Of a DNA stretch of 64,000 bases, positions 24,339 through 46,705 are shown one piece after another. Numbering within the stretch: position 1 is the first letter of the stretch; every line of letters starts with the position of its first letter. Source of the DNA: Trujillonella endophytica (GTDB lineage Bacteria > Actinomycetota > Actinomycetes > Mycobacteriales > Geodermatophilaceae); assembly GCF_900110555.1 (NCBI RefSeq), contig NZ_FOEE01000002.1:1-64000 (forward strand), read 5' to 3'. The translations under genes and the position numbers were made by a program. The notes under the pieces were generated by a model, which did no database searches, was not told the DNA's origin, and worked only from the letters and a program-made list of their open reading frames with translations.

Positions 24339-24340
24339 GC

Positions 24341-31356: not shown

Positions 31357-32243
31357 GTGCGGCGGACCTCCTGACGGCCGAAGAGCCCGTTCGGCCGGAC
31401 GAGCAGCATGAGGAAGATGAGCGCGAAGGCGATCGCGGGGGTCCACGAGCCGTCGGTGTTGACCAGGACGACGGTCTCGACGCCGGCCAGGACCATGGCG
31501 CCGACCACGACGCCGGCGATGCTGCCGACCCCGCCGAGGATGATCGCGGCGAACGCCTTCAGCAGGAACGCGTCGCCGGACTCGGGGGCGATCGACCCCA
31601 GGTAGTAGGTGAGCAGCACGCCGGCCAGGCCCGCGAGGGCGCCGGCGACCGCCATGGTCAGCAGCGCCAGGCGGCGGCGGTCGACGCCCATCATCGTGGC
31701 GACCTCGGAGTCGACGCCGATCGCCCGCAGCGCCAGGCCCGGCCGGGCGGCCCGCAGCCACCAGCCGATGAGCCCCGCCAGGCCGAGTGCGGCCACGAGG
31801 ATCACCAGCTGGATGTTCGACACCCGGACGAAGCCGAGGTCGTAGGTGGTCACCCGGAAGGTGCCGCCGGAGTAGCCGAACGGCACGCTCTTGGTGATCC
31901 GCTGGGCGATCGCCAGCGGGATGATCGCGATGCCGATACCGCCGACGATGATCTGCAGCTCGGCCTTGCGGTGGTCCCTGGCCCGCCGCTGGATCGGCTC
32001 GAACGCCAGCACCTGGATCAGGACCGACATCGCGGCCCCGATCAGCACGCCGAGGCCGATCATCGCCGGCATCGGCAGCGCCACCTCCTCGGACACGAGG
32101 TGGGCGGTGAACGCGGCGAACATGAAGATCGACCCGTGGGCGAAGTTCAGGATGCCGATCGTGCCCCAGGCCAGGCTCATGCCCAGCGCGAACAACAGGT
32201 AGAGCGAGCCCAGTGTGAGGGCGTTGAGGACGTCCTGCGCCAT
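31353..32243 (-). CDS. livH: Branched-chain amino acid-type ABC transporter permease LivH
   Basis: The 296-residue permease starts with LNALTLGSLYLLFALGMSLA and has WGTIGILNFAHGSIFM, the signature of LivH, and ends in FALIFLMLLVRPNGLFG. It forms the channel with LivM. It starts at ATG 32243, preceded by AGGAGCTGAC. It is separated from the binding-protein gene by a strong hairpin. Confidence 0.92.
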   Translation of the reverse strand: MAQDVLNALTLGSLYLLFALGMSLAWGTIGILNFAHGSIFMFAAFTAHLVSEEVALPMPAMIGLGVLIGAAMSVLIQVLAFEPIQRRARDHRKAELQIIVGGIGIAIIPLAIAQRITKSVPFGYSGGTFRVTTYDLGFVRVSNIQLVILVAALGLAGLIGWWLRAARPGLALRAIGVDSEVATMMGVDRRRLALLTMAVAGALAGLAGVLLTYYLGSIAPESGDAFLLKAFAAIILGGVGSIAGVVVGAMVLAGVETVVLVNTDGSWTPAIAFALIFLMLLVRPNGLFGRQEVRRT

Positions 32244-32265
32244 GTGTCAGCTCCTAGCGGTGGGA

Positions 32266-32298
32266 CCGGTGCCGGCCGGGGGGTCCGGCCGGCACCGG
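32266..32298 (-). terminator. Hairpin between livK and livH
   Basis: A perfect 14-bp stem (32266-32279 with 32285-32298) and 5-nt loop lie between the binding-protein stop and livH. It likely causes partial termination or stabilises the binding-protein message, as at the CUT2 operon. Confidence 0.65.
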
Positions 32299-32311
32299 CG
32301 TCCGACCTGGG

Positions 32312-33520
32312 TCAGTTCTCGCCCAGCTCGAACGGGACCTCGGCGGCGCCGTCCCAGCGGACGAGCACGCCGTCGACACGGGCGTCGTTGCCCTCGAAGG
32401 TGACCGACCCCTGGGCGCCCTCGAAGCCCTCGCCGGCCAGGTCGGTCATCGCCTGCTGCACCGCACCCCGGTCGGCGCTGTCGGCCTCGGCGATCGCGCG
32501 GGCCAGGAACCACATGGCGTCGTAGGCCTCGGCCGAGTAGTTCGTCGGGTCCTCGTCGTACTCCGCCCGGAACGCCTCGACGAAGGTCTGCGAGCTCTCG
32601 TCGGGCTGGCCGGCGTTGAAGTTGGCCGGCCACACGGCGCCCTCGGCGGTCTGCCCCGCGGAGGAGAGGTTGCCGGCGCCCATGGCGCTCATGCCGATGA
32701 TCTCGCCCTCGAAGCCGGCCTGCCGCAGCTGCGTGATGGCCACGGGAGCCTGCGGGCCCTGCACCATGAGGAAGGCGGCGTCGGGGGCGTCGCCGGCGAT
32801 CGACGACGCCTGGTTGGTGAAGTCCTGGGCGGTGGTCTCCACGCCGGAGGAGCTGATGACCTCGAAGCCGTGGTCCTCACCCATCGCGGGGATCGTGTCC
32901 TCGCCCAGCTGGACCAGCGTCGGGTTGCCGGTGTTGATCACGACCGCGGCCGTGGTGACGCCCTGCTGCTCCAGGTAGTCCCCGACGATGTCGAAGTAGG
33001 ACTCGGCCGGCGGGGTCATCCGGAAGGTGAAGTCCCCGGTCAGGACGCCCTCGCTGCCCGCCTGGACGTAGACGACCGGGATCCCGGCCTGGTCGGCGAT
33101 CGGCGAGACGGCGGTCGCCTGGGCGCTGGCCTCGGGGCCGATGATCGCGGAGAAGGACGGGTCGGCCGCGGCCTGGCCGGCGAAGCTCGCCGCCTCCTGC
33201 GCGCTGGCGGCGCTGTCCCGGGTGTCGAGCTCGATCGTGCTGTCGCCGAGGAGGCCGTCCTCCTCGATCTCCGCCAGCGCGAGGTCGATCCCCTGCTGCG
33301 CGGCGAGGCCGGCGAAGGAGACCGGACCGGTCAGCGCGCGGATGTTCATGATCTTGATCGTGTCCGGCAGGCCCTCGCCGCCGTCCCCGCCGCCGCCGCC
33401 GGAGCCCCCGCCGGAGCCGCCGTCGCCGGGAGAGCTGCATGCCGCCAGGCCCACTGCCAGCAGCAGGGCACCGGCCCCGCCGAGGGCCTTGCGCCGGCCG
33501 GTCGGGACATGTGTGTTCAT
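32312..33520 (-). CDS. livK: Liv-type ABC transporter substrate-binding lipoprotein
   Basis: This 402-residue precursor begins at ATG 33520 (GGAGAG 6 nt ahead). It has a signal peptide ending VGLAAC; the lipobox Cys is followed by a Gly/Ser/Asp-rich linker and then the Leu/Ile/Val-binding fold (IKIMNIRALTGPVSFAGLAA, GIDLALAEIEEDGLLG, SAIIGPEASAQATAV, GIPVVYVQAGSE). A TTG seven codons earlier was rejected. It opens the five-gene Liv operon. The ligand is uncertain. Confidence 0.9.
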   Translation of the reverse strand: MNTHVPTGRRKALGGAGALLLAVGLAACSSPGDGGSGGGSGGGGGDGGEGLPDTIKIMNIRALTGPVSFAGLAAQQGIDLALAEIEEDGLLGDSTIELDTRDSAASAQEAASFAGQAAADPSFSAIIGPEASAQATAVSPIADQAGIPVVYVQAGSEGVLTGDFTFRMTPPAESYFDIVGDYLEQQGVTTAAVVINTGNPTLVQLGEDTIPAMGEDHGFEVISSSGVETTAQDFTNQASSIAGDAPDAAFLMVQGPQAPVAITQLRQAGFEGEIIGMSAMGAGNLSSAGQTAEGAVWPANFNAGQPDESSQTFVEAFRAEYDEDPTNYSAEAYDAMWFLARAIAEADSADRGAVQQAMTDLAGEGFEGAQGSVTFEGNDARVDGVLVRWDGAAEVPFELGEN

Positions 33521-33560
33521 CGACTCTCCAAAGTCTTGCAATCATGTGCAGGGTTTGACG

Positions 33561-33756: not shown

Positions 33757-35226
33757 TCAGATGCCCTGGATCACCTTGGTCTCGAGGAACGCGCCGATGC
33801 CCTCCAGGCCGCCCTCGCGGCCGAGCCCGGATTGCTTGAACCCGCCGAAGGGCTGGGTCACGCACATCCCCCAGTCGTTGACGTAGATCTGGCCGGTGCG
33901 CACCCGGCGGGCCACGGACTCCCCCAGCGCCGGATCCGCGGTGAAGACCGCGCCGGAGAGCCCGTAGGGGCTGTCGTTGGCGATCCGCACGGCGTCGTCG
34001 ACCGTGTCGTAGGGGATGACCACGAGCACCGGACCGAAGATCTCCTCCTGGGCGATGCGCATCGAGTTGTCCACGTCGGCGAACAGGGTCGGCTGGACGT
34101 ACCAGCCGCGGTCCAGCCCCTCGGGGCGGCCGCCGCCGGTGACCAGCCGCGCGCCCTCCTCGATCCCGGTGCGGATGTAGCCCTCGACCCGCTCGCGCTG
34201 CCGCTCGGCGGCCAGCGGGCCGACCAGCACGCCCTCCTCCCGGGGGTCGCCCACCCGCACGGACTCCATGACGCCCCGGACGGCCTCGACAACCTCCTCC
34301 TGCCGGTCCCGCGGGACCACCAGCCTGGTGAGCGCGGCGCAGACCTGGCCGGAGTTGCCGATGTTGGCGAACGTGACCGTCTGGGCCACCGCGGCCACGT
34401 CGGCGTCGGGCAGCACGATGGCCGCGGACTTGCCGCCGAGTTCCAGCGTCACCCGCGCGATGCGCTCGCCGCACAGCTGCATGACGCGTCGCCCGGCGAC
34501 CGTGGACCCGGTGAAGGACACCTTGTCGACGTCGGGGTGGCGGACCAGGTGCTCGCCCACCTCGCGCCCGCCCGGCAGCACGCTGACCACGCCCTCGGGC
34601 AGCCCGGCGGCCTCCAGCGCCTCGGCCAGCACCAGCACCGACACCGGCCCCTCGGGCGCCGGCTTGAGGACGACGGTGCAGCCCGCCGCGAGCGCGGGAG
34701 CGATCTTCAGCGAGGCGGTCGCGACCGGCCCGTTCCACGGGATGATCACCGCGGCGACGCCGACCGGCTCGCGGACGACGGTGGCGATGGCGCCGTCGGG
34801 CAGCGCCCGCTGCTCCTCCAGCACGATCGTGCCGGCGAGGGTGGCGGCGTCGTCCCAGATGGCCGTGGCGTTGGCGTGGAACGCCTTGCTGATCATCTCC
34901 GGGGCACCGATCTCGGCGGTGAAGGACGCCTCCATCTCCGGGATGCGCCGGCCGACCTCCTCGGCGACGCGGCGCAGCGCGGCCGCCCGCTCCGCCGGGG
35001 CCATCCGGGGCCAGGGCCCCTCGTCGAAGGCGCGCCGGGCGGCGGCCACGGCGGCGTCCATGTCGGCCGGACCGGCGGCCGGGACGGTCGCGACGACCTC
35101 CTCGGTGATCGGTGACACCACCTCGATCACCTCGTCGGTGGCCGGGGGTACCCACCGGCCACCGACGAAGAGCTTGTCGAACGAGCGCACGCCGCTGTCG
35201 GCTCGCTCCTGCACGGCGTTGCTCAT
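33757..35226 (-). CDS. Aldehyde dehydrogenase of the ring-opening module
   Basis: The 489-residue ALDH has Asn165 (IIPWNGP), Glu262 (LELGGKS) and nucleophile Cys296 (GNSGQVCAALTR). It oxidises an aldehyde to the acid with NAD(P). I chose ATG 35226, with AGAGG about 7 nt upstream, over the GTG at 35244. It is the last gene after a SnoaL-like protein and an NDMA-type alcohol dehydrogenase. In the proposed pathway it takes an omega-oxo acid to the diacid, equivalent to ChnE in cyclohexanol degradation. Confidence 0.92.
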   Translation of the reverse strand: MSNAVQERADSGVRSFDKLFVGGRWVPPATDEVIEVVSPITEEVVATVPAAGPADMDAAVAAARRAFDEGPWPRMAPAERAAALRRVAEEVGRRIPEMEASFTAEIGAPEMISKAFHANATAIWDDAATLAGTIVLEEQRALPDGAIATVVREPVGVAAVIIPWNGPVATASLKIAPALAAGCTVVLKPAPEGPVSVLVLAEALEAAGLPEGVVSVLPGGREVGEHLVRHPDVDKVSFTGSTVAGRRVMQLCGERIARVTLELGGKSAAIVLPDADVAAVAQTVTFANIGNSGQVCAALTRLVVPRDRQEEVVEAVRGVMESVRVGDPREEGVLVGPLAAERQRERVEGYIRTGIEEGARLVTGGGRPEGLDRGWYVQPTLFADVDNSMRIAQEEIFGPVLVVIPYDTVDDAVRIANDSPYGLSGAVFTADPALGESVARRVRTGQIYVNDWGMCVTQPFGGFKQSGLGREGGLEGIGAFLETKVIQGI

Positions 35227-35256
35227 GCTGGTCCTCTCAGACACGGGTCCGCGGGT

Positions 35257-35700
35257 TCAGGCATCGAACCCGTCCATCTCGGGCGGGGTGAGGGCGGAGA
35301 TGCGGCGGGAGGCGATGCGCCACCCGTCCGCGGTCCGCCGGTAGACGTCCTCGTTGAGCGCGATCGCCCGGAACGCCGCGCCGGTCTTCGTGTGCCCCTC
35401 GGAGAACACGTAGTTGGTGCCGCGGGCGGTCGCCCCGTCGTCGTCGAGGTCCACGACGTGGTTGGTGATGACGTGGAACTGGTCGGCGATGGCCGCGGCG
35501 TCGCGCTCGAAGAACGCGAGGATCGCCGCGCGCCCCTCCAGGCGCTCGAGGCCGACGGGCGAGGCGTCCCAGACGGCGTCGTCGGTGAAGGCCGACAGCG
35601 CCTCGGCGGGGTCGAAGCGGTCCAGCCCGCGGGCGTAGACGTGCGTGGCCCGCTGGATGTCGAGCAGGTCCGCGGTGCGCGAGTCGGTCGTGGTGGTCAT
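35257..35700 (-). CDS. SnoaL/NTF2-like protein
   Basis: The 147-residue protein has the SnoaL-like order: helix DIQRATHVYARGLDRFDPAE, DAVWDASP, a sheet segment HVVDLDDDGATARGTNYVF and an ending DGWRIASRRISALT. Members with this arrangement often appear as small dehydratase- or isomerase-like proteins near dehydrogenases. It lies 8 bp after the alcohol dehydrogenase stop and 30 bp before the ALDH start, so it is within the operon. Reaction unknown. Confidence 0.8.
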   Translation of the reverse strand: MTTTTDSRTADLLDIQRATHVYARGLDRFDPAEALSAFTDDAVWDASPVGLERLEGRAAILAFFERDAAAIADQFHVITNHVVDLDDDGATARGTNYVFSEGHTKTGAAFRAIALNEDVYRRTADGWRIASRRISALTPPEMDGFDA

Positions 35701-35708
35701 CGCCGGCC

Positions 35709-36830
35709 TCAGTCGTCGTAGACGATGACGCCGCGGATGTTCTTGCCCGCGCGCATATCGGCGAAGGCCTCGTTGATGTCCTCGAGCTTGTAGGTCTTCG
35801 TGATCAGCTCGTCGAGCTTGAGCTCGCCCCGCTTGTAGAGGTCGGTCAGCAGCGGGACGTCGAGCCGGGACCGGGTGGAGCCGTAGAGGGTGCCCTGCAG
35901 CCGCTTGCCCGACATCGCGAAGGTGAACAGGTCGAACTCCACCTGCCGCTGCAGCACGGGCGCCGCCGAGGTGAGCACGATGACCCCGCCGCGACGGGTG
36001 AGCTGGTTGGCCTGCTCGACGATCTCCGGACCCGCGACGCCGACCGTGATGAGGACGCGGTCGGCACCCTGGCCGTCGGTCATCTGCGCGATCAGCTCCA
36101 TCGCCGCGGCGAAGTCGGCCACCGCATGGGTGGCGCCGAAGTCCTTGGCGACGTCGCGCTTGGAGGCCACCGGGTCGACCACGACGATGTTCTTGGCCCC
36201 GCGGTGCCGCGCCCCCTGGACGGCGTTCATGCCGACGCCGCCGACCCCGAGGACGACGACCGTGTCGTTCAGCTCGATCTCCGCCGCGTACACCGCCGAC
36301 CCCCAGCCGGTGGGCACGCCGCAGCCGATCAGCGAGGCCGGCATCAGCGGCATGTCCGCGTCGATCTTCACGACGCTGTCGAGCGGGGCGACGACGTACG
36401 GCGCGAACGTCCCCAGGTAGCTGAACGGGCCCACACCCTGGCCGCGGGCGTGGATGCGGTGGGTGCCGTCCGGCGCGAAGCCCCCGAGGACCCCGCCGCC
36501 CATCACGCACATCTGGGAGACCCCCGCGGCGCACATGCGGCACTTGCCGCACGAGGGCAGGAAGGACAGGACGACGTGGTCGCCGACCTCGACGTCGGTC
36601 ACGTCCGGCCCGACCTCGACGACCACGCCCGCGCCCTCGTGCCCGCCGAGGATCGGCCCCCAGCCCAGCGGGATGTCGCCGGTGTCGACGTGGTCATCGC
36701 TGTGGCAGATGCCCGACGAGGCCAGCTTGACCAGCACCTCACGGCTCTTGGGCGGGTCGAGCTCGATCTCCTCGACGCTCCATCCCGAGCGGGTCCCCGG
36801 CTCCCACAGCACTGCTCCGACGGTCTTCAC
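35709..36830 (-). CDS. NDMA-type (mycofactocin-associated) zinc alcohol dehydrogenase (1 of 2)
   Basis: This 373-residue medium-chain dehydrogenase has the catalytic zinc ligands Cys42 and His64-Glu65, the structural zinc cluster Cys94, 97, 100 and 108, and a Rossmann GVGGVGMNAVQGA. The length and the motifs ICHSDDHVDTGD and GCGVPTGWGSAV match the NDMA-dependent alcohol dehydrogenase family, which keeps NAD bound and depends on mycofactocin for reoxidation. GTG 36830 has GGGAG upstream; the longer frame to 36959 lacks one. With the adjacent ALDH it would oxidise a primary alcohol to the acid. Confidence 0.88.
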   Translation of the reverse strand: MKTVGAVLWEPGTRSGWSVEEIELDPPKSREVLVKLASSGICHSDDHVDTGDIPLGWGPILGGHEGAGVVVEVGPDVTDVEVGDHVVLSFLPSCGKCRMCAAGVSQMCVMGGGVLGGFAPDGTHRIHARGQGVGPFSYLGTFAPYVVAPLDSVVKIDADMPLMPASLIGCGVPTGWGSAVYAAEIELNDTVVVLGVGGVGMNAVQGARHRGAKNIVVVDPVASKRDVAKDFGATHAVADFAAAMELIAQMTDGQGADRVLITVGVAGPEIVEQANQLTRRGGVIVLTSAAPVLQRQVEFDLFTFAMSGKRLQGTLYGSTRSRLDVPLLTDLYKRGELKLDELITKTYKLEDINEAFADMRAGKNIRGVIVYDD

Positions 36831-36981
36831 GCGTGCTCCCTCGCGTCGAACCCCGCCGGTCCAGGCCGGCGGGTGCGGTCCGGCGGGACGTCGTCGTCCC
36901 GGCCGGCGTGCTGTGACGGTAGGCACAGCCCCGCGCGACCCGCCAGGGTCTCTGCGCATGTTTCGCAGTTTTTGTGTCGGC

Positions 36982-37011
36982 TTGCATCCGAGCGCATCGT
37001 CCGCCTACTTT
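36982..37011 (+). promoter_or_regulatory. Promoter of the esterase/BVMO operon
   Basis: TTGCAT (36982-36987) and TACTTT (37006-37011) are 18 bp apart and lie in an AT-rich island inside the 244-bp divergent gap. Transcription would start near 37018, about 57 nt before the TTG start codon of the esterase. Confidence 0.5.
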
Positions 37012-37074
37012 TTTGTGGTCTGGCTCACACTTCCCGGCGGGCCACCGGCGGGCTCCCGGCGGAGGGCGAACCCC

Positions 37075-38016
37075 TTGGCACTCGACGACGCGACGACGGC
37101 GCTGCTCACCCAGCTGGCCGAGAGCGGCACCAAGCCGCTGCACGAGATGACCCCGCAGGAGGCCCGCGGCCTGACCGCCGCCCTGGGCGAGCTGTACGGC
37201 CCCGGCCCGGAGATGGCGCGGGTGGAGGACGTCGCGGCCCCCTCGCCGGACGGTCCGGACGTCCCGCTGCGCCTGCTCGTGCCCCGGGGCGAGGTGCGCG
37301 GCGTCGTCGTCTACCTGCACGGCGGCGGCTGGGTGATCGGCGCGCTGGACGAGTTCGAGACCCTCGGCCGGACGCTGGCCGAGCGGACCCGCTGCGCCGT
37401 CGTCATGGTCGACTACCGGCTGGCGCCGGAGCATCCCTTCCCGGCCGCGGTGGACGACTCGTGGACGGCTTTGCGGTGGGTCGACGAGCACCGGGAGCAG
37501 CTGGCCGGTGCCCGCGTTCCGCTCGTCGTCGCCGGCGACAGCGCCGGGGGGAACCTGGCCGCGATCCTCACGCAGCGGGCCCGCGCGGCGGGTGGCCCGG
37601 CGATCGCCCTGCAGGTCCTCGCCTATCCGGTGACCGACTGCGACCTGGACAACGCCAGCTACCGCGACCCGGCCAACCAGCTCCTGCTCAGCCGCGACTC
37701 GATGGTGTGGTTCTGGGACCTCTACGCGCCCGACCCCGACCAGCGGCGGCTCCCGGACGCCTGCCCCGCAAGGGCGGCGGACCTCGGCGGGCTGCCGCCC
37801 GCGGTCGTGCTCCTGGCCGAGCACGACGTGCTGCGCCAGGAGGGCCAGGCGTACGCCGACGCGCTGGCCCGGGCCGGCGTGCCGGTGCAGGCGCGGGTCT
37901 TCGAGGGCCAGATGCACGGCTTCTTCACCATGGTCAACGTCCTGCCGGGCAGCGCCGCGGGGATCGACCACGTCGCCGCCGCGGTCGATCGGGAGCTGAC
38001 CGCCCGACCCGCGTGA
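37075..38016 (+). CDS. HSL-family (GDXG) alpha/beta hydrolase, candidate lactone hydrolase
   Basis: The 313-residue esterase has the oxyanion motif HGGGW (82-86), nucleophile Ser156 in GDSAGGN, Asp251 (AEHDVL) and His281 (MHGF), a complete hormone-sensitive-lipase triad. Enzymes of this family include the monoterpene epsilon-lactone hydrolase of Rhodococcus. I selected the TTG at 37075, with GGAGGG 9 nt ahead; the frame is open further but without a ribosome site. It lies 68 bp ahead of the Baeyer-Villiger gene, so hydrolysis of the lactone or ester product is the likely job. Confidence 0.85.
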   Translation: MALDDATTALLTQLAESGTKPLHEMTPQEARGLTAALGELYGPGPEMARVEDVAAPSPDGPDVPLRLLVPRGEVRGVVVYLHGGGWVIGALDEFETLGRTLAERTRCAVVMVDYRLAPEHPFPAAVDDSWTALRWVDEHREQLAGARVPLVVAGDSAGGNLAAILTQRARAAGGPAIALQVLAYPVTDCDLDNASYRDPANQLLLSRDSMVWFWDLYAPDPDQRRLPDACPARAADLGGLPPAVVLLAEHDVLRQEGQAYADALARAGVPVQARVFEGQMHGFFTMVNVLPGSAAGIDHVAAAVDRELTARPA

Positions 38017-38083
38017 TCCGGGCACGACCCCGGCCGCGGCGGGCGTCGCCGCGACCGGGCACTCCGAGGGGGGAACGAGGCAG

Positions 38084-39754
38084 ATGAGCCAGACCGCATC
38101 CCGGCCGCCGGCGGCCACGGACACGAACAGCAGGGACGTCGACGCCGTCGTCGTCGGGGCCGGCCTGTCGGGGCTCTACCTGCTGCACCGGCTGCGCCGC
38201 CAGGGCCTGACCGTCCGGGTGTTCGAGGCCGGCGACGGGGTCGGGGGCACCTGGTACTGGAACCGGTACCCCGGCGCCCGCGTCGACGTGAAGAGCATGG
38301 ACTACAGCTACTCCTTCGACCCCGACCTGGAGCAGGACTGGGTGTGGACCGAGAAGTACCCGCCCCAGGAGGAGCTGCTCCGCTACCTCGAGCACGTGGC
38401 CGACCGGTTCGACCTGTACCGCGACATCCGGCTGGAGACCCGGGTCACCGAGGCGTCGTGGGACGACAGCACCGACCGCTGGCACGTGCGCACCGACCGC
38501 GGCGACCAGGTCACCGCCCAGTTCCTCGTCATGGCCACCGGCTGCCTGTCCGCCGCCAAGGTCCCCGAGGTCCCCGGGCTGGAGACGTTCCGCGGCCGCT
38601 GGTACCACACCGGCCACTGGCCCCGGGAGGGCGTGGACTTCTCCGGCCGGCGGGTCGGCGTGGTCGGCACCGGCTCCTCCGGCGTCCAGGCGATCCCGCT
38701 GATCGCCGAGCAGGCCACCGAGCTGACAGTCTTCCAGCGGACCCCGAACTTCGTGCTGCCCGCCCGCAACCACCCGATCGACCCCGAGCACCAGCGCTCG
38801 GTGAAGGCGCGGTACGGGGAGGTGCGCGAGGCCGCCCGGCAGTCCGCCTTCGGGATCGCGGTCCCGGCGCCGCAGAAGTCCGCCCTCGAGGCGTCGCCGG
38901 AGGAGCGGGAGTCCCGGTTCGAGCAGATCTGGTACGACGAGGACAACAACCTCGTCGACATGCTGACCAGCTACACCGACATGATCACCAGCCGCGAGGC
39001 GAACGACACCGCCGCGCAGTACGTCCGCGACCGCATCGCCGAGATCGTGGACGACCCGGAGGTCGCGGCGATGCTGCAGCCGACCGACCACCCGTTCGGG
39101 ACCAAGCGCCCCTGCCTCGGGACGAACTACTACGAGACGTTCAACCTGCCGCACGTCCGGCTCGTCGACGTGCGCCGGGACCCGATCGTCGAGATCACCC
39201 CGACGGGCCTGCGGACGGCGGCCGAGGACTTCGAGTTCGACGCGCTCGTCTTCGCCACCGGCTTCGACGCGATGACCGGCGCGCTCACCGCCGTCGACAT
39301 CCGCGGGAGGGACGGCGTCCTGCTGCGCGAGAAGTGGGCCGCCGGGCCGCGGACCTACCTCGGCCTCCAGGTCGCCGGCTTCCCCAACCTGTTCACGATC
39401 ACCGGGCCCGGCAGCCCCTCGGTGCTGTCGAACATGATGACGTCGATCGAGCAGCACGTGGAATGGGTCGGCGACGCGATCGGCGACCTGCGGGCCTGCG
39501 GACTGACCACCATCGAGGCGACCGTCGAGGCCGAGGACGCGTGGACCCGGCACGTCGACGAGGTCGGGCACACGACGCTCTACCCGACGGCCAACTCCTG
39601 GTACATGGGCGACAACGTGCCGGGCAAGCCGCGGGTGTTCATGCCCTACATCGGCGGCGTCGGCCCCTACCGGCAGCGGTGCACCGACGTCGCGGCCTGC
39701 GGCTACGAGGGCTTCGTGCGCTCCGCGGCGCGGCAGCCGGCCGCCGCCCGCTGA
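38084..39754 (+). CDS. Baeyer-Villiger monooxygenase (class B flavoprotein)
   Basis: The 556-residue flavoprotein has an FAD Rossmann motif GAGLSG (25-30), the Baeyer-Villiger fingerprint F-x-G-x-x-x-H-x-x-x-W-P as FRGRWYHTGHWP (169-180) and the NADPH motif GTGSSG (195-200). The closest described groups are cyclohexanone, cyclopentanone and monocyclic monoterpene ketone monooxygenases. It inserts one oxygen next to the ketone carbonyl, turning a cyclic ketone to a lactone using NADPH and O2. With the upstream esterase it forms a classical ketone-to-hydroxy-acid pair. Confidence 0.93.
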   Translation: MSQTASRPPAATDTNSRDVDAVVVGAGLSGLYLLHRLRRQGLTVRVFEAGDGVGGTWYWNRYPGARVDVKSMDYSYSFDPDLEQDWVWTEKYPPQEELLRYLEHVADRFDLYRDIRLETRVTEASWDDSTDRWHVRTDRGDQVTAQFLVMATGCLSAAKVPEVPGLETFRGRWYHTGHWPREGVDFSGRRVGVVGTGSSGVQAIPLIAEQATELTVFQRTPNFVLPARNHPIDPEHQRSVKARYGEVREAARQSAFGIAVPAPQKSALEASPEERESRFEQIWYDEDNNLVDMLTSYTDMITSREANDTAAQYVRDRIAEIVDDPEVAAMLQPTDHPFGTKRPCLGTNYYETFNLPHVRLVDVRRDPIVEITPTGLRTAAEDFEFDALVFATGFDAMTGALTAVDIRGRDGVLLREKWAAGPRTYLGLQVAGFPNLFTITGPGSPSVLSNMMTSIEQHVEWVGDAIGDLRACGLTTIEATVEAEDAWTRHVDEVGHTTLYPTANSWYMGDNVPGKPRVFMPYIGGVGPYRQRCTDVAACGYEGFVRSAARQPAAAR

Positions 39755-39762
39755 CCCCGCGG

Positions 39763-39808
39763 CCGGCGACGAGGGCCCCCTGCCGGGCGGGGTGGCCCTC
39801 GTCGCCGG
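39763..39808. terminator. Bidirectional terminator between BVMO and SDR
   Basis: A perfect 15-bp stem (39763-39777 with 39794-39808) and 16-nt loop lie in the convergent gap between the monooxygenase and the SDR. Confidence 0.75.
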
Positions 39809-39832
39809 AGAACCCGGGCGAACCGCGGGAGC

Positions 39833-40660
39833 TCAGATGAGCAGCGTGCCCATGTCGACGGGCAGCGCGGTGCCCGTGACGTACTTGGCCTCGTCGGACA
39901 GGAGGAACAGGACGGCGTCGGAGATGTCGCCGGGCTCCACCGGCCCGCGCTCCATGACGTTGGCCATCCAGCCGGGAGGGGCGTCGGCCTGCAGGTCCTT
40001 GGTGAAGAACTCGTTCTGGATCATCGGGGTCTGCACGCCCGCCGGGATGATGGTGTTGACCCGGATGCCGTGCGGGCCCAGCGCCATCGCGTAGTTGCGC
40101 ATGAGGGCGAGGACGCCGGACTTCGCCGCCCCGTAGGCCATGTGCCCCGGGTTGAGCATGTCGAGCTTGTAGGCCACGCCGCGGAAGCTCGACGTCGACC
40201 CGGTGAGGACGATGGCCCCGCCGTTGCCCCGCTGCACCAGACCGGGCGTCACCGCGCGCAGCGTGTAGAAGACGCCGCTGAGGTTGGTGGCGATCGTGTC
40301 GTGCCACGCGCTCATCCGCTGGGCGTGCGGGCCGGTCGAGGGCAGGATCCCGGCGTTGGCGCACACCAGGTCGATGTGCCCGAACCGCTCCTCGGCCTGC
40401 TTCACGGCCTCGTCGACCTCGCCGTCCTCCCGGACGTCGGCGATGATCCCGAGGAACTCGCGGCCGTGCCCGCGCACCAGCTTCTCGGTCTCCGCGAGGT
40501 CCTCCGGGGTGGACATCGCGTACTGCACCGACTCGAACTGCCGGGCCACGTCGACGACGACGACGTCGGCCCCCTCCGCCGCCAGCCGCACCGCGTGCGA
40601 CCGGCCCTGACCGCGGGCACCCCCGGTGACGAACGCGACCTTGCCGTCGAACCGACCCAT
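39833..40660 (-). CDS. Mycofactocin-coupled type SDR family oxidoreductase (4 of 4)
   Basis: This 275-residue SDR has TGGARGQGRSHAVRLAAEG, an acidic VVDVARQF, the inserted segment YAMSTPEDLAETEKLVR, CANAGILP, and catalytic YGAAK. It resembles carveol dehydrogenase, the founding member of the mycofactocin-coupled SDRs. It faces the Baeyer-Villiger gene, so it probably makes the cyclic ketone from the alcohol. AGGAGGAG precedes ATG 40660. The acidic stretch ends VARQ rather than DICAD, so it is the most diverged of the four copies. Confidence 0.86.
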   Translation of the reverse strand: MGRFDGKVAFVTGGARGQGRSHAVRLAAEGADVVVVDVARQFESVQYAMSTPEDLAETEKLVRGHGREFLGIIADVREDGEVDEAVKQAEERFGHIDLVCANAGILPSTGPHAQRMSAWHDTIATNLSGVFYTLRAVTPGLVQRGNGGAIVLTGSTSSFRGVAYKLDMLNPGHMAYGAAKSGVLALMRNYAMALGPHGIRVNTIIPAGVQTPMIQNEFFTKDLQADAPPGWMANVMERGPVEPGDISDAVLFLLSDEAKYVTGTALPVDMGTLLI

Positions 40661-40710
40661 GACTCCTCCTGTGTGTGTCTCTGGATCCCGGCCGGAGGCC
40701 GGGGCGTGCG

Positions 40711-41760
40711 TCAGGCGCCCGTGGGCGCGGGCAGGATCTCCGGCTGCGGCGTCGGCAGGGCGCGGATGGCCGGGACGACCTCCTTGCCCAGCCGCTCGAT
40801 GGCGGCGATCGTCTCGGCGGCGCTCATCGACGGCCACTGCGGGCGCAGCAGCAGGGGGTCCACCGGGAAGCGGGTGCACAACTCGGTGAGCGAGGCGATG
40901 ACCTCGGCGTCCGTGCCGAGCACCGCGTGCTCGCCGACCGTCCGCACGAAGTCCGCGTCGAGGTCGCTCGCGCTGCCGGCCTTGCCCATGCCCTTCTCGG
41001 CGTAGCTGAGGTACTTGCCCTTGGCCACGCGGGCGTACTCGACGATCGCCTCGTCCCGGCTGTCGGCGACCAGCACGTTGCGGCGCACCGGCTGCGGGCC
41101 GAACGGCTTGCCGCGCGCGGCGAAGCCCTCCCGGACCGCGGCGAAGCGCTCCTCGATCTCGTCGTAGGTGGCCTCCGGGGTCACCGGGAAGGCGTCCCCG
41201 AGGCGGCCGGCGCGGCGGGCGCCGGCGACGCTCTGGGCGCCGACCCAGATCGGCGGGTGCGGCGACTGGACGGGCTTGAGGTGGGGCCGGACGCCCTCGA
41301 GCTGCCAGAACCGGCCGTGGTGGGTGACCTCGTCCTGCGTCCAGAGCTTGACCAGCAGCTCGAGGATCTCGTCGGTGCGCGCGGCGCGCTCCTTGAACGG
41401 GATCCCGAGGTAGTCGAACTCCTCGGGCCGGTAGCCGATGCCCGCGCCGAAGACCAGCCGGCCCTCGGTGACGACGTCCAGCGTCGCGAGCTCCTCGGCG
41501 AGCATCACCGGGTGGTACAGCGGCGCGATCATGATCTGGGTGGCCAGCCGCGTGCTCCGGTCGCAGTCGGCGGCGAGGCGGGCCAGCAGCGGCACCGGCT
41601 GCAGCCAGCGCAGCTCCCCGTAGAGGAAGTGCTGGCCGATGGCGATGTACGTCATCCCGTTGCGCTGGGCGGCCTCGACGATGCGCCGCACGTCGTCGAA
41701 CTGCTGGGCGGGACTGACGGACGACGGGACGTCGGAGAGCAGCATGCCGACGGCGACCAT
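40711..41760 (-). CDS. LLM-class flavin-dependent oxidoreductase
   Basis: The 349-residue protein is a luciferase-like TIM barrel: TYIAIGQHFLYGELRWLQPV, ATQIMIAPLYHPVMLAEELA, LDVVTEGRLVFGAGIGYRPE and PIWVGAQS. Such enzymes use FMNH2 or F420H2. In actinobacteria many are F420-dependent reductases or dehydrogenases. It lies in the module between a mycofactocin-type SDR and an acyl-CoA dehydrogenase and could reduce an enone, as carvone reductase does, or act as a monooxygenase; sequence alone does not decide. The ATG is at 41760. Confidence 0.85.
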   Translation of the reverse strand: MVAVGMLLSDVPSSVSPAQQFDDVRRIVEAAQRNGMTYIAIGQHFLYGELRWLQPVPLLARLAADCDRSTRLATQIMIAPLYHPVMLAEELATLDVVTEGRLVFGAGIGYRPEEFDYLGIPFKERAARTDEILELLVKLWTQDEVTHHGRFWQLEGVRPHLKPVQSPHPPIWVGAQSVAGARRAGRLGDAFPVTPEATYDEIEERFAAVREGFAARGKPFGPQPVRRNVLVADSRDEAIVEYARVAKGKYLSYAEKGMGKAGSASDLDADFVRTVGEHAVLGTDAEVIASLTELCTRFPVDPLLLRPQWPSMSAAETIAAIERLGKEVVPAIRALPTPQPEILPAPTGA

Positions 41761-41788
41761 GGCGGGCCTCTTCTCTGGTGGGGGCGGG

Positions 41789-42919
41789 TCAGCGAGCGGG
41801 GCGGGTGAGGGTCTTGGCCAGCTGGCCGAGCAGGACCTCGTTGCCGCCCTCGTAGATGCGCATCGGCCGCGCGTTGCGGTACAGCCGCTCGATCGTCGAG
41901 CCGGTGACGACGCCGAAGCGGCCCATCATCTGGACGCAGCGGTCGACCACGCGACCGGCGGTCTCGGTGGCGGCGACCTTCGCCATCGACGACCAGTGCA
42001 GGGCACCCATGGGGTCGGCGGCCGCGCGGCTGGCGGCGGCGTAGGTGAGCAGCCGGGCCTGCTCGATCTCCATCCAGCAGGTGCCCAGCATCTGCGGCAT
42101 CGGGCCCAGCCGGGCCAGCGTGCTGCCGAACTGCTCGCGGCCGGTGGTGTGCCGGACGGCCTCGTCGAGCGCGGCCTGCGCCAGGCCGACCGCGGACCCG
42201 GCGACCGAGACCCGGAAGGTGGCCAGCGTCTGCAGCACCATCGGGAAGGCCTGGCCGGGCAGCCCGACGCGGGAGTCCAGCGGCACCCGGACGTCGTCGA
42301 AGTGCACCTCGCCGATGATGTGCGGCGCGATCAGGTCGGGGCCGGACTCGACCCGCACGCCGGGGGTGTCGGCGGGGACGAAGACCAGCGAGAAGCCGTC
42401 GTCCTCCTTGGCGAGGACGCTGTAGAAGTGCGCGGCGCCGGCGTTGGTGATGAACGACTTACGGCCGCTCAGGACCAGTTCGCCGTCCTTCTCGACCACG
42501 GTGGTGGTGATGGCCTTGAGGTCGGAGCCGACCTCGGGCTCGGTCAGGCCGAGCGCGGCGATGGCGTCCAGCGACACCACGCGCGGCAGCCACTCGGCCT
42601 GGATCCGCTCGGCTGCGCCGACGGCGAGCGCGTAGCTGCCGATGCCCTGCATCGCGAACAGCGAGTCCAGGTGCGCCGACACACCGCCGAACGCCTCCCG
42701 GACGACGGTGACGGCCAGGGAGTCGACCTTCTCGGACTCGCCGCCGTGCGCGGCCGGCACCGTCAGCGCCGCCAGGCCGCTGGCCCGCAGAGCGTCGCGC
42801 ATGCCCGGGTGGACGTCGGTGGCCGCGTCGGCCTCGCCCGCCTGGTCACGCACCGAGTCGGCGACCGCCCGGGCCCGCTCGCGCAGCTGCTGATGGTGTT
42901 CCGGCAGGTCGAACGACAT
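41789..42919 (-). CDS. Acyl-CoA dehydrogenase
   Basis: This 376-residue flavoenzyme has ALGLTEPEVGSDLKA (FAD/substrate motif), FITNAGAAHFYSVLA, TTGREQFGSTLARLGPMPQ and the C-terminal IYEGGNEVLLGQLAKTL, where Glu of YEGGNE is the usual catalytic region. ATG 42919 was chosen because the domain starts there and GAGGGACC precedes it; the longer frame to 43021 enters the promoter region. It faces the thiolase operon and may start beta-oxidation of the diacid or acyl-CoA from the ring-opening module. Confidence 0.92.
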   Translation of the reverse strand: MSFDLPEHHQQLRERARAVADSVRDQAGEADAATDVHPGMRDALRASGLAALTVPAAHGGESEKVDSLAVTVVREAFGGVSAHLDSLFAMQGIGSYALAVGAAERIQAEWLPRVVSLDAIAALGLTEPEVGSDLKAITTTVVEKDGELVLSGRKSFITNAGAAHFYSVLAKEDDGFSLVFVPADTPGVRVESGPDLIAPHIIGEVHFDDVRVPLDSRVGLPGQAFPMVLQTLATFRVSVAGSAVGLAQAALDEAVRHTTGREQFGSTLARLGPMPQMLGTCWMEIEQARLLTYAAASRAAADPMGALHWSSMAKVAATETAGRVVDRCVQMMGRFGVVTGSTIERLYRNARPMRIYEGGNEVLLGQLAKTLTRPAR

Positions 42920-43002: not shown

Positions 43003-43029
43003 CCATGTTATTGGTATTCATGGTTAAGC
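43003..43029 (+). promoter_or_regulatory. Divergent control region with CATGGTTAAGC box
   Basis: CCATGTTATTGG (43003-43014) is followed by TTCATGGTTAAGC (43017-43029). The latter aligns with the TAKGGTNAGC boxes and ends 54 nt before the thiolase ATG, the same distance as the other copies. The gap of 164 bp serves the divergent acyl-CoA dehydrogenase and thiolase operons. Confidence 0.45.
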
Positions 43030-43083
43030 TGTCAACGCCCTGCCCGGTCCCCGAGAGATCGGGACCCCTGAGAGGACGTGCCC

Positions 43084-44277
43084 ATGCCTCCCGCCGTCAT
43101 CGTCGACGCCGTCCGCAGTCCCATGGGGCGCGGAAAGCTCGGCGGCGCCCTGTCCGGACTGCACCCGGTCGACCTGCTGGCCCAGGTGCTGAACGCCCTC
43201 GCGGAGCGCAACTCCCTGGACCCCGCCACGGTCGACGACGTGCTCGTCGGCTGCGTGGGGCAGAACGGCGAGCAGTCGGCGACCCCCGGCCGCCAGGCGG
43301 TGCTCGCCGCCGGCTGGCCCGAGTCGGTGCCGTCGGTGACCATCGAGCGCAAGTGCGGCTCGGGGCAGCAGGCGCTGGACTTCGCCGTCCAGGGCGTGCT
43401 CGCGGGCGCCTACGACATCGCCGTCGCGGCGGGCGTGGAGTCGATGAGCCGGGTGCCGATGGGTTCCGCGCGCGGCGACGCCGACCCCCACGGCCCGCTC
43501 GTGACGCAGCGGTACTCCCCCGGCCTGGTGCCGCAGGGCGTCTCCGCGGAACTGGTCGCGCAGAAGTGGCGCATGTCCCGGGAGCAGCTCGACGCCTTCG
43601 CCGTCGCCTCGCACGAGCGGGCCGCCGCGGCCGCCGCCTCCGGCGCGTTCGACCGGGAGATCGTCGCGATCACCACCCCGGACGGCGAGGTCCGCGCGGA
43701 CGAGACCATCCGCCCGGGCTCGACGGTCGAGAAGCTCGGCGCGCTGAAGCCGGCCTTCGCCTCCAGCCCGCACGCGCCCCGCTTCCCCGACCTCGAGTGG
43801 AAGGTCACCGCGGGCAACTCCTCCCAGCTCACCGACGGCGCCGCGGCGCTGCTGGTGATGAGCGAGGAGCGGGCCGCCGCGCTCGGCCTGACCCCGCGCG
43901 CCCGCATCGTCGCGACCGCCGTCACCGGCGACGACCCGCTGATGATGCTGACCGGCCCGATCCCGGCGACCCGCAAGCTGCTGCAGCGCTCGGGTCTGTC
44001 GATCGACGACATCGCCGCCTTCGAGGTCAACGAGGCCTTCGCCTCCGTGCCGCTGGCGTTCCAGGCGGAGTTCGGCATCCCCGCCGAGCGGCTCAATCCC
44101 CGGGGCGGGGCCATCGCCCTCGGCCACCCGCTCGGCGCCTCCGGTGCCCGGCTGGCCACCACGCTGCTCGGGTACCTCGAGGACACCGGGCAGCGCTACG
44201 GGCTGCAGACGATGTGCGAGGCCGGCGGCATGGCCAACGCACTGGTGATCGAGAACCTGAGCGCAGGGAGGAACTGA
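43084..44277 (+). CDS. Acetyl-CoA acyltransferase (thiolase)
   Basis: The 397-residue thiolase has nucleophile Cys in ERKCGSGQQA, AGGVESMSRVPM-type loop (GVESMSRVPM), NEAFASVP, catalytic His in GGAIALGHPLGASGAR and a second Cys in CEAGGMANA; the latter is a variant of the usual CxGGG. It cleaves 3-oxoacyl-CoA with CoA. ATG 43084 follows AGAGGAC at suitable distance; a GTG two codons earlier is less well placed. It leads a thiolase/SDR/crotonase operon. Confidence 0.93.
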   Translation: MPPAVIVDAVRSPMGRGKLGGALSGLHPVDLLAQVLNALAERNSLDPATVDDVLVGCVGQNGEQSATPGRQAVLAAGWPESVPSVTIERKCGSGQQALDFAVQGVLAGAYDIAVAAGVESMSRVPMGSARGDADPHGPLVTQRYSPGLVPQGVSAELVAQKWRMSREQLDAFAVASHERAAAAAASGAFDREIVAITTPDGEVRADETIRPGSTVEKLGALKPAFASSPHAPRFPDLEWKVTAGNSSQLTDGAAALLVMSEERAAALGLTPRARIVATAVTGDDPLMMLTGPIPATRKLLQRSGLSIDDIAAFEVNEAFASVPLAFQAEFGIPAERLNPRGGAIALGHPLGASGARLATTLLGYLEDTGQRYGLQTMCEAGGMANALVIENLSAGRN

Positions 44278-44279: not shown

Positions 44280-45044
44280 ATGGACGTCACCGCAGGTTCG
44301 GCCGTCGTCACCGGAGGGGCCTCCGGGCTCGCCCTCGCCACCGCCCGCCGCCTGGTCGAGAAGGGCGTGCCGACGGTGCTCGTCGACCTGCCCACCTCCG
44401 CCGGCGCCGCCGTCGCGGAGGAGCTCGGCGGGCGGACCCGCTTCGTCGCCGCCGACGTCACCGACCCCGAGGCCGTCGCCGCCGCGGTCGCCGCCGCCGA
44501 CGAGCTCGCCCCGCTGCGCACGCTGGTGCACTGCGCCGGCCGCGGTGGCGCCATGCGCGTCGTCGACAAGGAGGGCAACCCCGGCGACCTCGCGTTCTAT
44601 GAGCAGATCGTGCGGATCAACCTCATCGGCACCTTCAACGTGCTCAGCCAGGCCGCCGCGCGGATGGCGAAGCACGAGCCGGTCGACGGCGAGCGCGGCG
44701 TCTGCGTGCTCACCTCGTCCGTCGCCGCGTGGGAGGGCCAGATCGGCCAGCTGCCCTACGCGTCGGCCAAGGCCGGCATCGTCGGGCTCACGCTCGTGGC
44801 CGCCCGCGACCTGGCCAGCAAGCTCATCCGCGTCGCCACCATCGCCCCGGGCACCTTCGACACCCCGATCCTCGCCCGGCTGCCCCAGACCGTCCGCGAC
44901 TCCCTCGGCGAGATGACCCCGCACCCGCGGCGGCTCGGCCGACCCGACGAGTTCGCCCGGATGGCGATGGCGATCATCGACAACCCGATGCTCAACGGCG
45001 AGACGATCCGGCTCGACGGCGCGATCCGGATGCAGCCCAAGTGA
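44280..45044 (+). CDS. SDR, 3-hydroxyacyl-CoA dehydrogenase type II-like
   Basis: This 254-residue SDR resembles the HSD17B10 family: [47 protein letters not shown], catalytic [20 protein letters not shown] and [18 protein letters not shown]. It would oxidise a 3-hydroxyacyl-CoA with NAD, directly before the thiolase step. The ATG is 2 bp after the thiolase stop. It lacks the insert of the mycofactocin-type SDRs. Confidence 0.9.
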
Positions 45045-45829
45045 GCGCGCCCGACACCACCGCCGCCGAGCCCGAGGTGCTGGTCGAGCAGCAGGGCGCC
45101 GTCCTCGTCGTCACGATCAACCGCCCGCGGGCCAAGAACTCGATCAACACCGCCGCGGCGCAGCTCATCGGCGCCGCGATGGACCGGCTGGACACCGATC
45201 CCGGCCTCTTCGTCGGGGTCATCACCGGCACAGGGGGCGTGTTCAGCGCCGGCATGGACCTGAAGGCGTTCCTCGCCGGGGAGAAGCCGGAGGTGCCGGG
45301 GCGCGGCTTCGCCGGGCTGGTCGAGCGCCCGCCGACGACCCCGCTGATCGCGGCGGTCGAGGGCCCGGCCCTGGCCGGCGGCTTCGAGATCGCCCTGGCG
45401 TGCGACCTGATCGTCGCGGCCGAGGACGCGTTCTTCGGGCTGCCGGAGGTCAAGCGCGGGCTCCTGGCCGGCGGCGGCGGGCTGCTGCGGCTGCCGGTGA
45501 AGGCCGGGCTGCCCAAGGCCACCGAGTGGGCGCTGACCGGCGACCGGGTGAGCGCCGCCGACGCGCACGCCGCCGGGCTGGTCAACCGGCTCGTCCCACC
45601 GGGCCGGGCACTGGCCGCGGCGCTGGAGCTGGCGCAGCAGATCGCCGGCAACGGGCCGCTCGCGGTGCAGGGCACCAAGCGGATCCTCGCCGAGGGCCCG
45701 GGCTGGCCGGCCGCGGAGGCGTTCGCCCGGCAGTGGGAGATCTACGAGCCGATCCGCTCCTCGGCCGACGCCCAGGAGGGTGCCCGGGCGTTCACCGAGA
45801 AGCGCGAGCCGAGGTGGCAGGGCAGATGA
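45041..45829 (+). CDS. Enoyl-CoA hydratase (crotonase) family protein
   Basis: The 262-residue crotonase has VFSAGMDLKAFLAGE and GPALAGGFEIALACDLIVAAED with oxyanion-hole Gly, then FGLPEVKRGLLAGGGGLLRL. The Glu of LPEVKRG corresponds to a catalytic Glu position. It would hydrate the enoyl-CoA formed by the divergent dehydrogenase. GTG 45041 overlaps the SDR stop (GTGA). With thiolase and SDR it completes one beta-oxidation round. Confidence 0.9.
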   Translation: MSAPDTTAAEPEVLVEQQGAVLVVTINRPRAKNSINTAAAQLIGAAMDRLDTDPGLFVGVITGTGGVFSAGMDLKAFLAGEKPEVPGRGFAGLVERPPTTPLIAAVEGPALAGGFEIALACDLIVAAEDAFFGLPEVKRGLLAGGGGLLRLPVKAGLPKATEWALTGDRVSAADAHAAGLVNRLVPPGRALAAALELAQQIAGNGPLAVQGTKRILAEGPGWPAAEAFARQWEIYEPIRSSADAQEGARAFTEKREPRWQGR

Positions 45830-45895: not shown

Positions 45896-46654
45896 TCAGC
45901 GCCAGTCGATGATCGCGTCGACCAGCTGCGGATGCCGCTGCTCGACCCAGTCGGCGTACTCCTGCATGTGCTCGCGCATCAGCTTCTCCGCGGCATCCGC
46001 GTCGCCGGAGGAGATGGCGTCGGCGATCGCGGTGTGCACCTCGAGCACGTGCCGGCGGTCGTCCGCCGGGGAGAGCAGGCCGTTGACCTGGTCGCGGAAG
46101 ATGCCCTCGAGCGACGCGCTGATCAGGTTGAGCACCGGGTTGCCCGACATGGCCGCGACGGTCAGGTGGAAGTCCTTGGTCGCGTCGAAGTAGGCGGCGT
46201 CGTCGTCGACGTGGGCGGTCTCGGGGTCGACGATGGTGCCGACCAGCTCCTGGCCGCGGCGCTCGGCCGCGAGCCGGGCCATCATCGGTTCCAGCGACAG
46301 CCGGGCCTCGACGAGCTGGCGGAAGGTGACCCCGCCGATGTGGAAGAACAGGCTGGACATCCGGCCGTAGTCCCGCGAGCCGACCTCGATGACCATGGGC
46401 CCGCCGTTGCGGCCCGGCTTCATCGTGATGAGACCGTGCACCTCGAGGATCCGCAGGGCCTCGCGCAGCGAGCCCCGCCCGACGCCGTAGTCCTCGAGCA
46501 TCTGAGCCTCGGAGGACAGCAGCGTCCCCGGAGGCAGCTTCCGTGAGACGATCTCGTGCACGATCTCCTGCGCCAGGGCCTCGGCGACCTTGGCCCCCCG
46601 CTTGATGGGCCGGGGGGAGGCGCCGGCCTCGCGCGCTCGGCCTGGTGTCGACAT
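45896..46654 (-). CDS. GntR-family regulator, FadR/FCD subfamily
   Basis: The 252-residue protein has a winged-helix HTH (SSEAQMLEDYGVGRGSLREA, then LRILEVHGLITMKPG) and an all-helical FCD effector domain with a likely metal site (DFHLTVAAMSGN, HTAIADAISSGD). FCD regulators sense acyl-CoAs or organic acids and usually repress catabolic operons. ATG 46654 was chosen over 46696. It is convergent with the thiolase operon; it may also govern the divergent acyl-CoA dehydrogenase. Its own operator could be the AT-rich stretch at 46660-46700. Confidence 0.88.
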   Translation of the reverse strand: MSTPGRAREAGASPRPIKRGAKVAEALAQEIVHEIVSRKLPPGTLLSSEAQMLEDYGVGRGSLREALRILEVHGLITMKPGRNGGPMVIEVGSRDYGRMSSLFFHIGGVTFRQLVEARLSLEPMMARLAAERRGQELVGTIVDPETAHVDDDAAYFDATKDFHLTVAAMSGNPVLNLISASLEGIFRDQVNGLLSPADDRRHVLEVHTAIADAISSGDADAAEKLMREHMQEYADWVEQRHPQLVDAIIDWR

Positions 46655-46705
46655 GCGTTCGAGACTAGTAGCTCTGCGCATGGTTTTGGAGAACAAGCAA
46701 TGCGG

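Follow-up and report, generated by a model that had tools for sequence, protein, structure and literature searches.

The first 64,000 nucleotides of contig NZ_FOEE01000002.1 of Trujillonella endophytica (the window; contig C20, positions 1 to 64,000, of the 4.87-Mb host genome in 34 contigs) contain a conserved island of approximately 27 kb around a type I Baeyer-Villiger monooxygenase (BVMO) gene. We propose that the island is catabolic: it probably takes an alcohol through a ketone, an ester or lactone, a second alcohol, and an acid to beta-oxidation, and it is probably linked to mycofactocin.

The original prediction had placed seven enzymes between positions 33757 and 42919 and read them as a mycofactocin-type gene set that opens a ring to a diacid. 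Pfam and NCBIfam profiles find all seven enzymes there (Table 1), together with a SnoaL_4 gene that had been overlooked. These genes and their neighbors form two divergent pairs. In the first, the genes for an aldehyde dehydrogenase (ALDH), the SnoaL-like protein, and an NDMA-type Zn alcohol dehydrogenase (ADH) on the minus strand lie opposite the HSL-family esterase and the BVMO on the plus strand. In the second, a mycofactocin-coupled short-chain dehydrogenase/reductase (SDR), a luciferase-like (LLM) oxidoreductase, and an acyl-CoA dehydrogenase (ACAD) on the minus strand lie opposite a thiolase, another SDR, and an enoyl-CoA hydratase (ECH) on the plus strand, and a GntR/FCD regulator closes the pair. 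Neither Rfam families nor tRNA genes were found when the window was scanned.

The enzyme families support the predicted succession of functions, and from them we infer the reactions, their order, and the kind of substrate. A secondary alcohol would be oxidized to a ketone by the mycofactocin-dependent SDR, and the BVMO, which resembles PAMO and STMO, would insert an oxygen beside the carbonyl to give an ester or a lactone. Hydrolysis by the adjoining HSL esterase would free an alcohol, which the NDMA-type (putatively mycofactocin-dependent) ADH and then the ALDH may convert to an acid. An AMP-binding ligase would activate this acid, and the acyl-CoA dehydrogenase, the hydratase, an SDR, and the thiolase would degrade it. 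The same island also has genes for an importer and a CitE-like lyase.

Conservation of the island

Among 112 genomes of the family, BVMO matches at E ≤ 1e−200 are present in 27, and matches of at least 77% identity in 8, the host's own genome included. The seven other carriers of the closer matches are loci L005 to L009, from Geodermatophilus, and genomes G043 and G064. The host belongs to Geodermatophilaceae but to another genus than these carriers. All seven keep the order ALDH, SnoaL, NDMA-type ADH, HSL esterase, BVMO, mycofactocin-type SDR, LLM, ACAD, thiolase, SDR, and GntR, which therefore reflects more than a chance neighborhood. One of them (L006) has no ECH match downstream, L008 carries a second TIGR03971 SDR (394 bits), and L005 and L009 have a second BVMO in tandem. 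The tandem copies of L005 (genome G059, positions 4500 to 8021) are possibly decaying duplicates or draft errors: the first has an in-frame TAG, and the match to the second splits over two frames close to its start.

Upstream of the core, six of the seven relatives were compared; G059 was left out, its contig starting there. Five of the six share the order importer, AMP ligase, ACAD, CitE-like lyase, ALDH, CoA-transferase, amidohydrolase, and ECH. In the sixth (G058), the importer, lyase, and ACAD matches are reordered, and there is no ligase match. Because the upstream order continues in five of six relatives, the conserved unit spans approximately 27 kb (positions 19163 to 46696), three times the span originally described. 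At E ≤ 1e−200, BVMO matches are missing from two genomes of the same genus as the host, and hence the island is accessory.

Table 1. Features of the conserved island, from its left to its right edge (percentages are identities in the relatives unless otherwise stated)
Feature	Coordinates	Strand	Evidence and remarks
Enoyl-CoA hydratase family gene, left edge	19163..19945	-	PF00378; 88-92%, syntenic in 5/6 relatives
Amidohydrolase (Amidohydro_2)	19942..20817	-	PF04909; 80-82%, syntenic
Ordinary-type SDR, approximate limits	20810..21538	-	TIGR03971 135.6 bits, under cut-off 300
CoA-transferase family III, approximate limits	21655..22791	-	30% to another CoA-transferase of the window; 5 relatives have a CoA-transferase match in this position
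Aldehyde dehydrogenase	22872..24344	-	PF00171; 87-88%, syntenic
CitE/HpcH-type CoA-ester lyase	24886..25842	-	PF03328; 83-85%, syntenic
Acyl-CoA dehydrogenase, true start inside	25858..27231	-	PF00441 and others; 86-88%, syntenic
AMP-binding acyl-CoA ligase, true start inside	27035..28873	-	PF00501; 80-83%, syntenic
Branched-chain amino acid-type ABC importer (ATPases, permease, binding protein)	28897..33541	-	45-85% in 5 relatives
ALDH	33757..35244	-	PF00171 527 bits; best NCBIfam TIGR04284 450 bits, under cut-off 775
SnoaL-like protein (SnoaL_4), between ALDH and ADH	35257..35700	-	PF13577 E = 4e−24; 83-86%
NDMA-type (mycofactocin-associated) Zn ADH	35709..36830	-	TIGR03989 501.9 bits, cut-off 440
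Operator-like motif TGCGCATNTTTCGCAG, ADH/HSL divergent promoter	36951..36968	+	Same place with 0-2 mismatches in 5 Geodermatophilus loci
HSL-family esterase/lactonase, 313 amino acids, probable TTG start	37075..38016	+	PF07859 244 bits, E = 2e−72
Type I BVMO, 556 amino acids	38084..39754	+	Fingerprint; alignment with PAMO 1W4X
Mycofactocin-coupled SDR	39833..40660	-	TIGR03971 318.7 bits, cut-off 300; NAD-loop insert
LLM oxidoreductase	40711..41760	-	PF00296; 87-91%
ACAD	41789..42919	-	PF00441; start judged from homologues
Operator-like motif CCATGTTATTGGT...TCATGGTTATTGTGTCAA, ACAD/thiolase divergent promoter	43003..43035	+	Found in 5 relatives; 5 of 32 positions mismatched in window copy
Thiolase	43084..44277	+	PF00108/PF02803; TIGR01930 443 bits
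SDR, putative 3-hydroxyacyl-CoA dehydrogenase, approximate start	44283..45044	+	PF00106; 87-91%
ECH, approximate start	45074..45829	+	PF00378; 83-85% in 6/7 relatives
GntR/FCD regulator, right edge	45896..46696	-	PF00392 and PF07729; 79-84%

The BVMO and its substrate class

The type I BVMO fingerprint FxGxxxHxxxW(P/D) is matched by FRGRWYHTGHWP, and the Rossmann motifs GAGLSG and GTGSSG are present. Against solved structures, the BVMO scores 654 bits with PAMO, 635 with STMO, 540 with TmCHMO, 471 and 463 with two cyclohexanone monooxygenases (CHMOs), and 455 with OTEMO, and its identity to PAMO (1W4X) is 56% (293 of 526 aligned columns). The equivalents of Asp66 and Arg337 of PAMO are kept, Gln152 is replaced by Cys, and the active-site bulge is retained as Ser-Val in place of Ser-Ala. 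The adjoining HSL esterase has the HGGG and GDSAG motifs and matches Est8 (4YPV) best among solved structures.

These scores do not bear out the CHMO-like ring-opening step of the original prediction, which had called for a comparison with characterized CHMOs. Run on the solved enzymes, that comparison places the BVMO nearer to PAMO and STMO than to the cyclohexanone monooxygenase group; on this ranking we dropped CHMO-type ring opening as the leading reading. PAMO also ranks first for the BVMO relatives of Rhodococcus opacus and Lysinibacillus and even for a distant paralogue of 39% identity, with a smaller margin over CHMO (429 versus 380 bits). Rank alone is therefore weak, and we relied on the margin instead. 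In a tree of 34 hand-picked rows, with no CHMO or STMO row among them, the module BVMOs group firmly (100/100), PAMO falls in an unresolved fork, and the BVMOs of Rhodococcus koreensis and plasmid pLPS8 pair at 94/79. Four rows with stop codons in range (the first L005 copy, L010, L011, and L013) were left out of this tree.

Passages of PMC4966971 give mostly phenyl-substituted linear ketones as substrates of PAMO, and progesterone and phenylacetone as those of STMO. Since our BVMO scores in this range, a narrower form of the proposed pathway has to be weighed, in which a 2-alkanol or 4-aryl-2-butanol is oxidized to a methyl ketone and then to an acetate ester. The ester would yield acetate and a primary alcohol, which would pass through the aldehyde to a monoacid and beta-oxidation, with no ring opened and no diacid formed. 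This linear or aryl-alkyl route requires the identical enzyme set and has precedents: Gordonia AcmAB, a BVMO and an esterase, act in this way on acetone (passages of PMC6215540), and, in the portions of PMC12724338 available, Rhodococcus erythropolis XP on 2-hexadecanol yields 2-hexadecanone and myristyl acetate, and its BVMO_4041, a member of another BVMO group, turns 2-alkanones into acetate esters. A plain fatty acid, however, needs no CitE-like lyase, amidohydrolase, or CoA-transferase, and no alkane hydroxylase was noticed beside the module, although none was searched for (P450 genes start at 4794, 7968, and 60560). The bulge is indecisive, since OTEMO has a similar one yet accepts small monocyclic ketones (same passages of PMC4966971); we rejected it as proof of a linear substrate, STMO and OTEMO sharing it. 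Overall, we put the chance of the linear route somewhat below even.

With PAMO and STMO as the nearest enzymes, opening of a ring becomes less probable. It is still plausible, since OTEMO takes small monocyclic ketones and the third-nearest enzyme, TmCHMO, is named for cyclohexanone. In cyclohexanol degradation, ChnA to ChnE are an alcohol dehydrogenase, a BVMO, an esterase/lactonase, an alcohol dehydrogenase, and an ALDH. The order of functions is the same as in the island; the sequence comparison covered solved CHMOs. A strict analogue, which would turn cyclohexanol, or a cyclohexanol with a simple alkyl substituent, into a diacid of the adipate type and is likewise a narrower form of our proposal, gains from the one-for-one match of functions, from the ADH and ALDH steps on a primary alcohol that suit a 6-hydroxy acid, and from the CoA ligase and beta-oxidation genes of the island. 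Adipate breakdown, however, needs neither a CitE-type lyase nor an amidohydrolase, which would thus be superfluous, and the BVMO is 183 bits nearer to PAMO (1W4X) than to CHMO 3GWD. The island further differs from the Chn set in that its dehydrogenases are of mycofactocin families and in being larger, with a CoA ligase, a CitE-like lyase, and beta-oxidation genes. We therefore regard the strict analogue as highly doubtful, and ChnA-E-like opening of a ring to a diacid, as judged from the BVMO scores, as only possible.

Between a ring substrate (giving a lactone, hydroxy acid, and diacid) and a methyl ketone (giving an acetate ester, primary alcohol, and monoacid), the choice appears close to even. 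Because the conserved island includes a CitE-like lyase, an amidohydrolase, and a CoA-transferase, we lean slightly toward an alicyclic, possibly methyl-branched, substrate. The linear route and the Chn-type route are both special cases of the proposed pathway, so our confidence in them overlaps with our confidence in the pathway as a whole.

Mycofactocin, partner genes, and regulation

The module SDR scores 319.4 bits with TIGR03971 in a genome-wide search, close to its value in Table 1. Aligned with three other TIGR03971 SDRs and two ordinary SDRs of the window, it has the insert in the NAD-binding loop that, according to passages of PMC5264612, marks the family and is absent from ordinary SDRs. 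Its best solved-structure matches are the putative 3-ketoacyl reductase 3SX2 and several proteins labeled "carveol dehydrogenases," in agreement with the predicted likeness to carveol dehydrogenase. The host genome has mftA, -B, -C, -E, and -F together on contig C27 (bits/cut-off of 50.3/25, 111/33, 653/265, 333/172, and 492/280, respectively) and mftD on contig C31 (687 bits, cut-off 471). Above the cut-offs, it also has 22 TIGR03971 and 8 TIGR03989 genes, of which the window holds four and two; Geodermatophilus obscurus is listed with 0 and 1 in the part of PMC3023750 available. The description of the module as mycofactocin-based thus holds for family membership, as opposed to biochemistry: both SDR and ADH exceed curated cut-offs, and their predicted use of mycofactocin is well supported on that basis.

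The other TIGR03971 SDRs of the window lie at 6089 to 6889, 7006 to 7827, and 9851 to 10657, near the P450 genes at 4794 and 7968. The second TIGR03989 ADH (56063 to 57169, 482 bits) has an ALDH, a P450 (60560), an F420H2-dependent quinone reductase (61901), and a CoA-transferase nearby, and positions 56051 to 63584 may form a further catabolic unit of mycofactocin/F420 type. Positions 116 to 3318, at the window's left end, hold 2-oxoacid:ferredoxin oxidoreductase-like genes with thiamine pyrophosphate-binding and POR domains.

We examined partner genes in loci centered on the best 80 of 102 BVMO relatives (68 of the 80 with 1.5 kb on both sides). An HSL match lies within 1.5 kb of the BVMO in 43 of the 80, always on the same strand, and HSL matches are far denser within 2.5 kb of the BVMO than beyond (0.115 versus 0.0021 per kb), so that the BVMO-hydrolase pair is an old unit. 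The mycofactocin-type partnership, unlike the HSL pairing, is local. An SDR follows the BVMO in ten selected Bacilli loci, and the five SDRs tested score 179 to 193 bits with TIGR03971 (cut-off 300). No mftC match was found in the four Bacilli genomes tested, one of which (L017) has the HSL-BVMO pair without a following SDR. In R. koreensis (L040), which carries another BVMO lineage, HSL, BVMO, GntR, AMP ligase, ALDH, and NDMA-type ADH genes occupy one stretch; the ADH scores 540 bits with TIGR03989, and the genome has mftC. On plasmid NZ_CP147922.1 of Rhodococcus qingshengii (L115), one SDR gene separates the BVMO from an annotated mycofactocin-coupled SDR of 298.9 bits (cut-off 300). Jidongwangia (L010, BVMO identity 72%) lacks mftC, and the other module genes are absent from around its BVMO. 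We read these loci as one pathway scheme with exchangeable types of dehydrogenase; on sequence grounds, the module would best be taken as a variant of a known pathway type with the cofactor swapped.

Around the R. qingshengii BVMO there are also two acyl-CoA dehydrogenases, two CoA-transferases, two MaoC-type proteins, a thiolase with an OB-fold protein, and a Rieske protein. A BVMO relative of 63% identity on a plasmid of Streptomyces sp. NBC_00726 (L114) lies in a nonribosomal-peptide-like cluster with a P450, a tryptophan 7-halogenase, and an LLM enzyme, where the same BVMO group is apparently used in biosynthesis.

Several observations weigh against a single mycofactocin-linked pathway. 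The module SDR exceeds the TIGR03971 cut-off only narrowly. Among the 80 BVMO loci, an SDR of at least 40% identity to the mycofactocin-type SDRs of the window occurs in only 5 (L005 to L009), and an ADH of at least 45% identity in only 7 (the same five, L012, and L040); the L012 ADH is a 102-amino-acid fragment with no NCBIfam match at 1e−45. In Thermocatellispora (L011), an HSL-BVMO pair and two mftC genes are present, yet the SDR near the pair (163 bits) is not TIGR03971. The host genome has four other long BVMO matches, all without a TIGR03971 gene over the cut-off within 10 kb. Because mftC occurs in 99 of the 112 family genomes, its co-occurrence with the module is uninformative, and we rejected its presence in all eight carriers as support. 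Furthermore, the SDR and the BVMO belong to separate divergent units whose conserved motifs differ. Any 9-mer that the two promoters have in common recurs in at most two of six genomes, which leaves room for degenerate or distant sites.

The motif TGCGCATNTTTCGCAG of the first promoter occurs in the host genome as one exact copy and three more with 2 mismatches (reversed-pattern control, 2), and that of the second, also written CATGTTATTGGT..TCATGGTTATTGTGTCAA, is at the same position in the five relatives examined. The motifs being distinct, they do not provide the shared operator of a single co-regulated module, and since the ketone-making SDR lies outside the divergent unit of the BVMO, the easy argument for co-expression is gone. 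The motifs neither prove nor disprove co-expression of SDR and BVMO.

The two divergent promoters with their differing motifs would suit two independent neighboring pathways, a ketone/ester unit (ALDH-SnoaL-ADH and HSL-BVMO) and an unrelated beta-oxidation unit (SDR-LLM-ACAD and thiolase-SDR-ECH), and many loci do have HSL-BVMO pairs without genes of the second unit. Both units, however, occur together in all eight genomes with the module BVMO, and the host has both although its two same-genus relatives yield no BVMO match at the threshold given above. We consider two separate pathways unlikely and retain the single catabolic island as the preferred explanation.

The best NCBIfam match of the LLM enzyme, TIGR03619, gives 155.5 bits, below the cut-off of 166.9, and the fold matches of its model (predicted local distance difference test of 77 from 9 sequences; three of five models below 50) are mixed, including the RslO1 monooxygenase and the F420-dependent Mer. 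Its cofactor may be F420 or FMN. Two genes over the cut-off of TIGR03551 (F420 biosynthesis) are on the window's contig (C20:151155 and C20:414151). Carvone reductase (EC 1.3.99.25) has an undefined electron acceptor in passages of PMC4097962, and a link of the LLM enzyme to it is a lead only. A bolder version of our proposal, which we judge quite unlikely, would have the 27-kb island degrade an alicyclic, probably terpenoid-like alcohol, with both alcohol oxidations on mycofactocin, the cofactor being swapped relative to the mft-less Bacilli, and the LLM enzyme as an F420-dependent enone reductase and candidate carvone reductase-type enzyme.

Comparison with known systems

Our literature search, thin on subscription papers, found no account of the module and none joining mycofactocin and cyclohexanol; the passages mentioning both mycofactocin and Baeyer-Villiger oxidation do not link the two. 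Few TIGR03971 SDRs have been characterized beyond genome analysis (passages of PMC5264612), and many BVMOs have no known physiological substrate (passages of PMC12724338). A conserved island that ties a TIGR03971 SDR and a BVMO to one degradable substrate would make both questions testable.

Two systems resemble the island in function. The route of R. erythropolis DCL14, as described in passages of PMC4097962, runs through carveol dehydrogenase, carvone reductase, MMKMO, an epsilon-lactone hydrolase, and CoA activation. Compared by function, not sequence, it shares with the island a BVMO followed by a hydrolase and the activation of an acid to its CoA ester for beta-oxidation; its carveol dehydrogenase belongs to TIGR03971, the family of the module SDR (passages of PMC3023750), and the island has an LLM enzyme at the point where such a route would call for an enone reductase. 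The DCL14 route differs in yielding a secondary hydroxy acid, for which no ALDH is required. The acmAB operon of Gordonia TY-5, compared by description, likewise joins a BVMO and an esterase and uses a ketone derived from a secondary alcohol, but its substrate is a C3 compound, and the available passages of PMC6215540 describe no linked NDMA-type ADH.

Two further systems can be compared by sequence. Plasmid pLPS8 of R. opacus S8 (NZ_CP093381.1, L113) shares with the island a CitE protein, an ACAD, a BVMO (54% identity), an amidohydrolase, a CoA-transferase, an ALDH (44%), and a GntR regulator. It has an alpha/beta hydrolase of 48% identity to the island HSL esterase, as well as MaoC, FabG, a Zn-ADH, and an SDR. 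Its dehydrogenases are not of mycofactocin type: the Zn-ADH scores 287.5 bits with TIGR03989 (cut-off 440), and the SDR has no TIGR03971 match at E ≤ 1e−45. Lysinibacillus and Siminovitchia have a PAMO-like BVMO, an SDR, and an HSL hydrolase, as the island does, all on one strand, but their SDRs fall far under the TIGR03971 cut-off. The Bacilli and R. opacus loci are thus comparison sets without mycofactocin-type enzymes.

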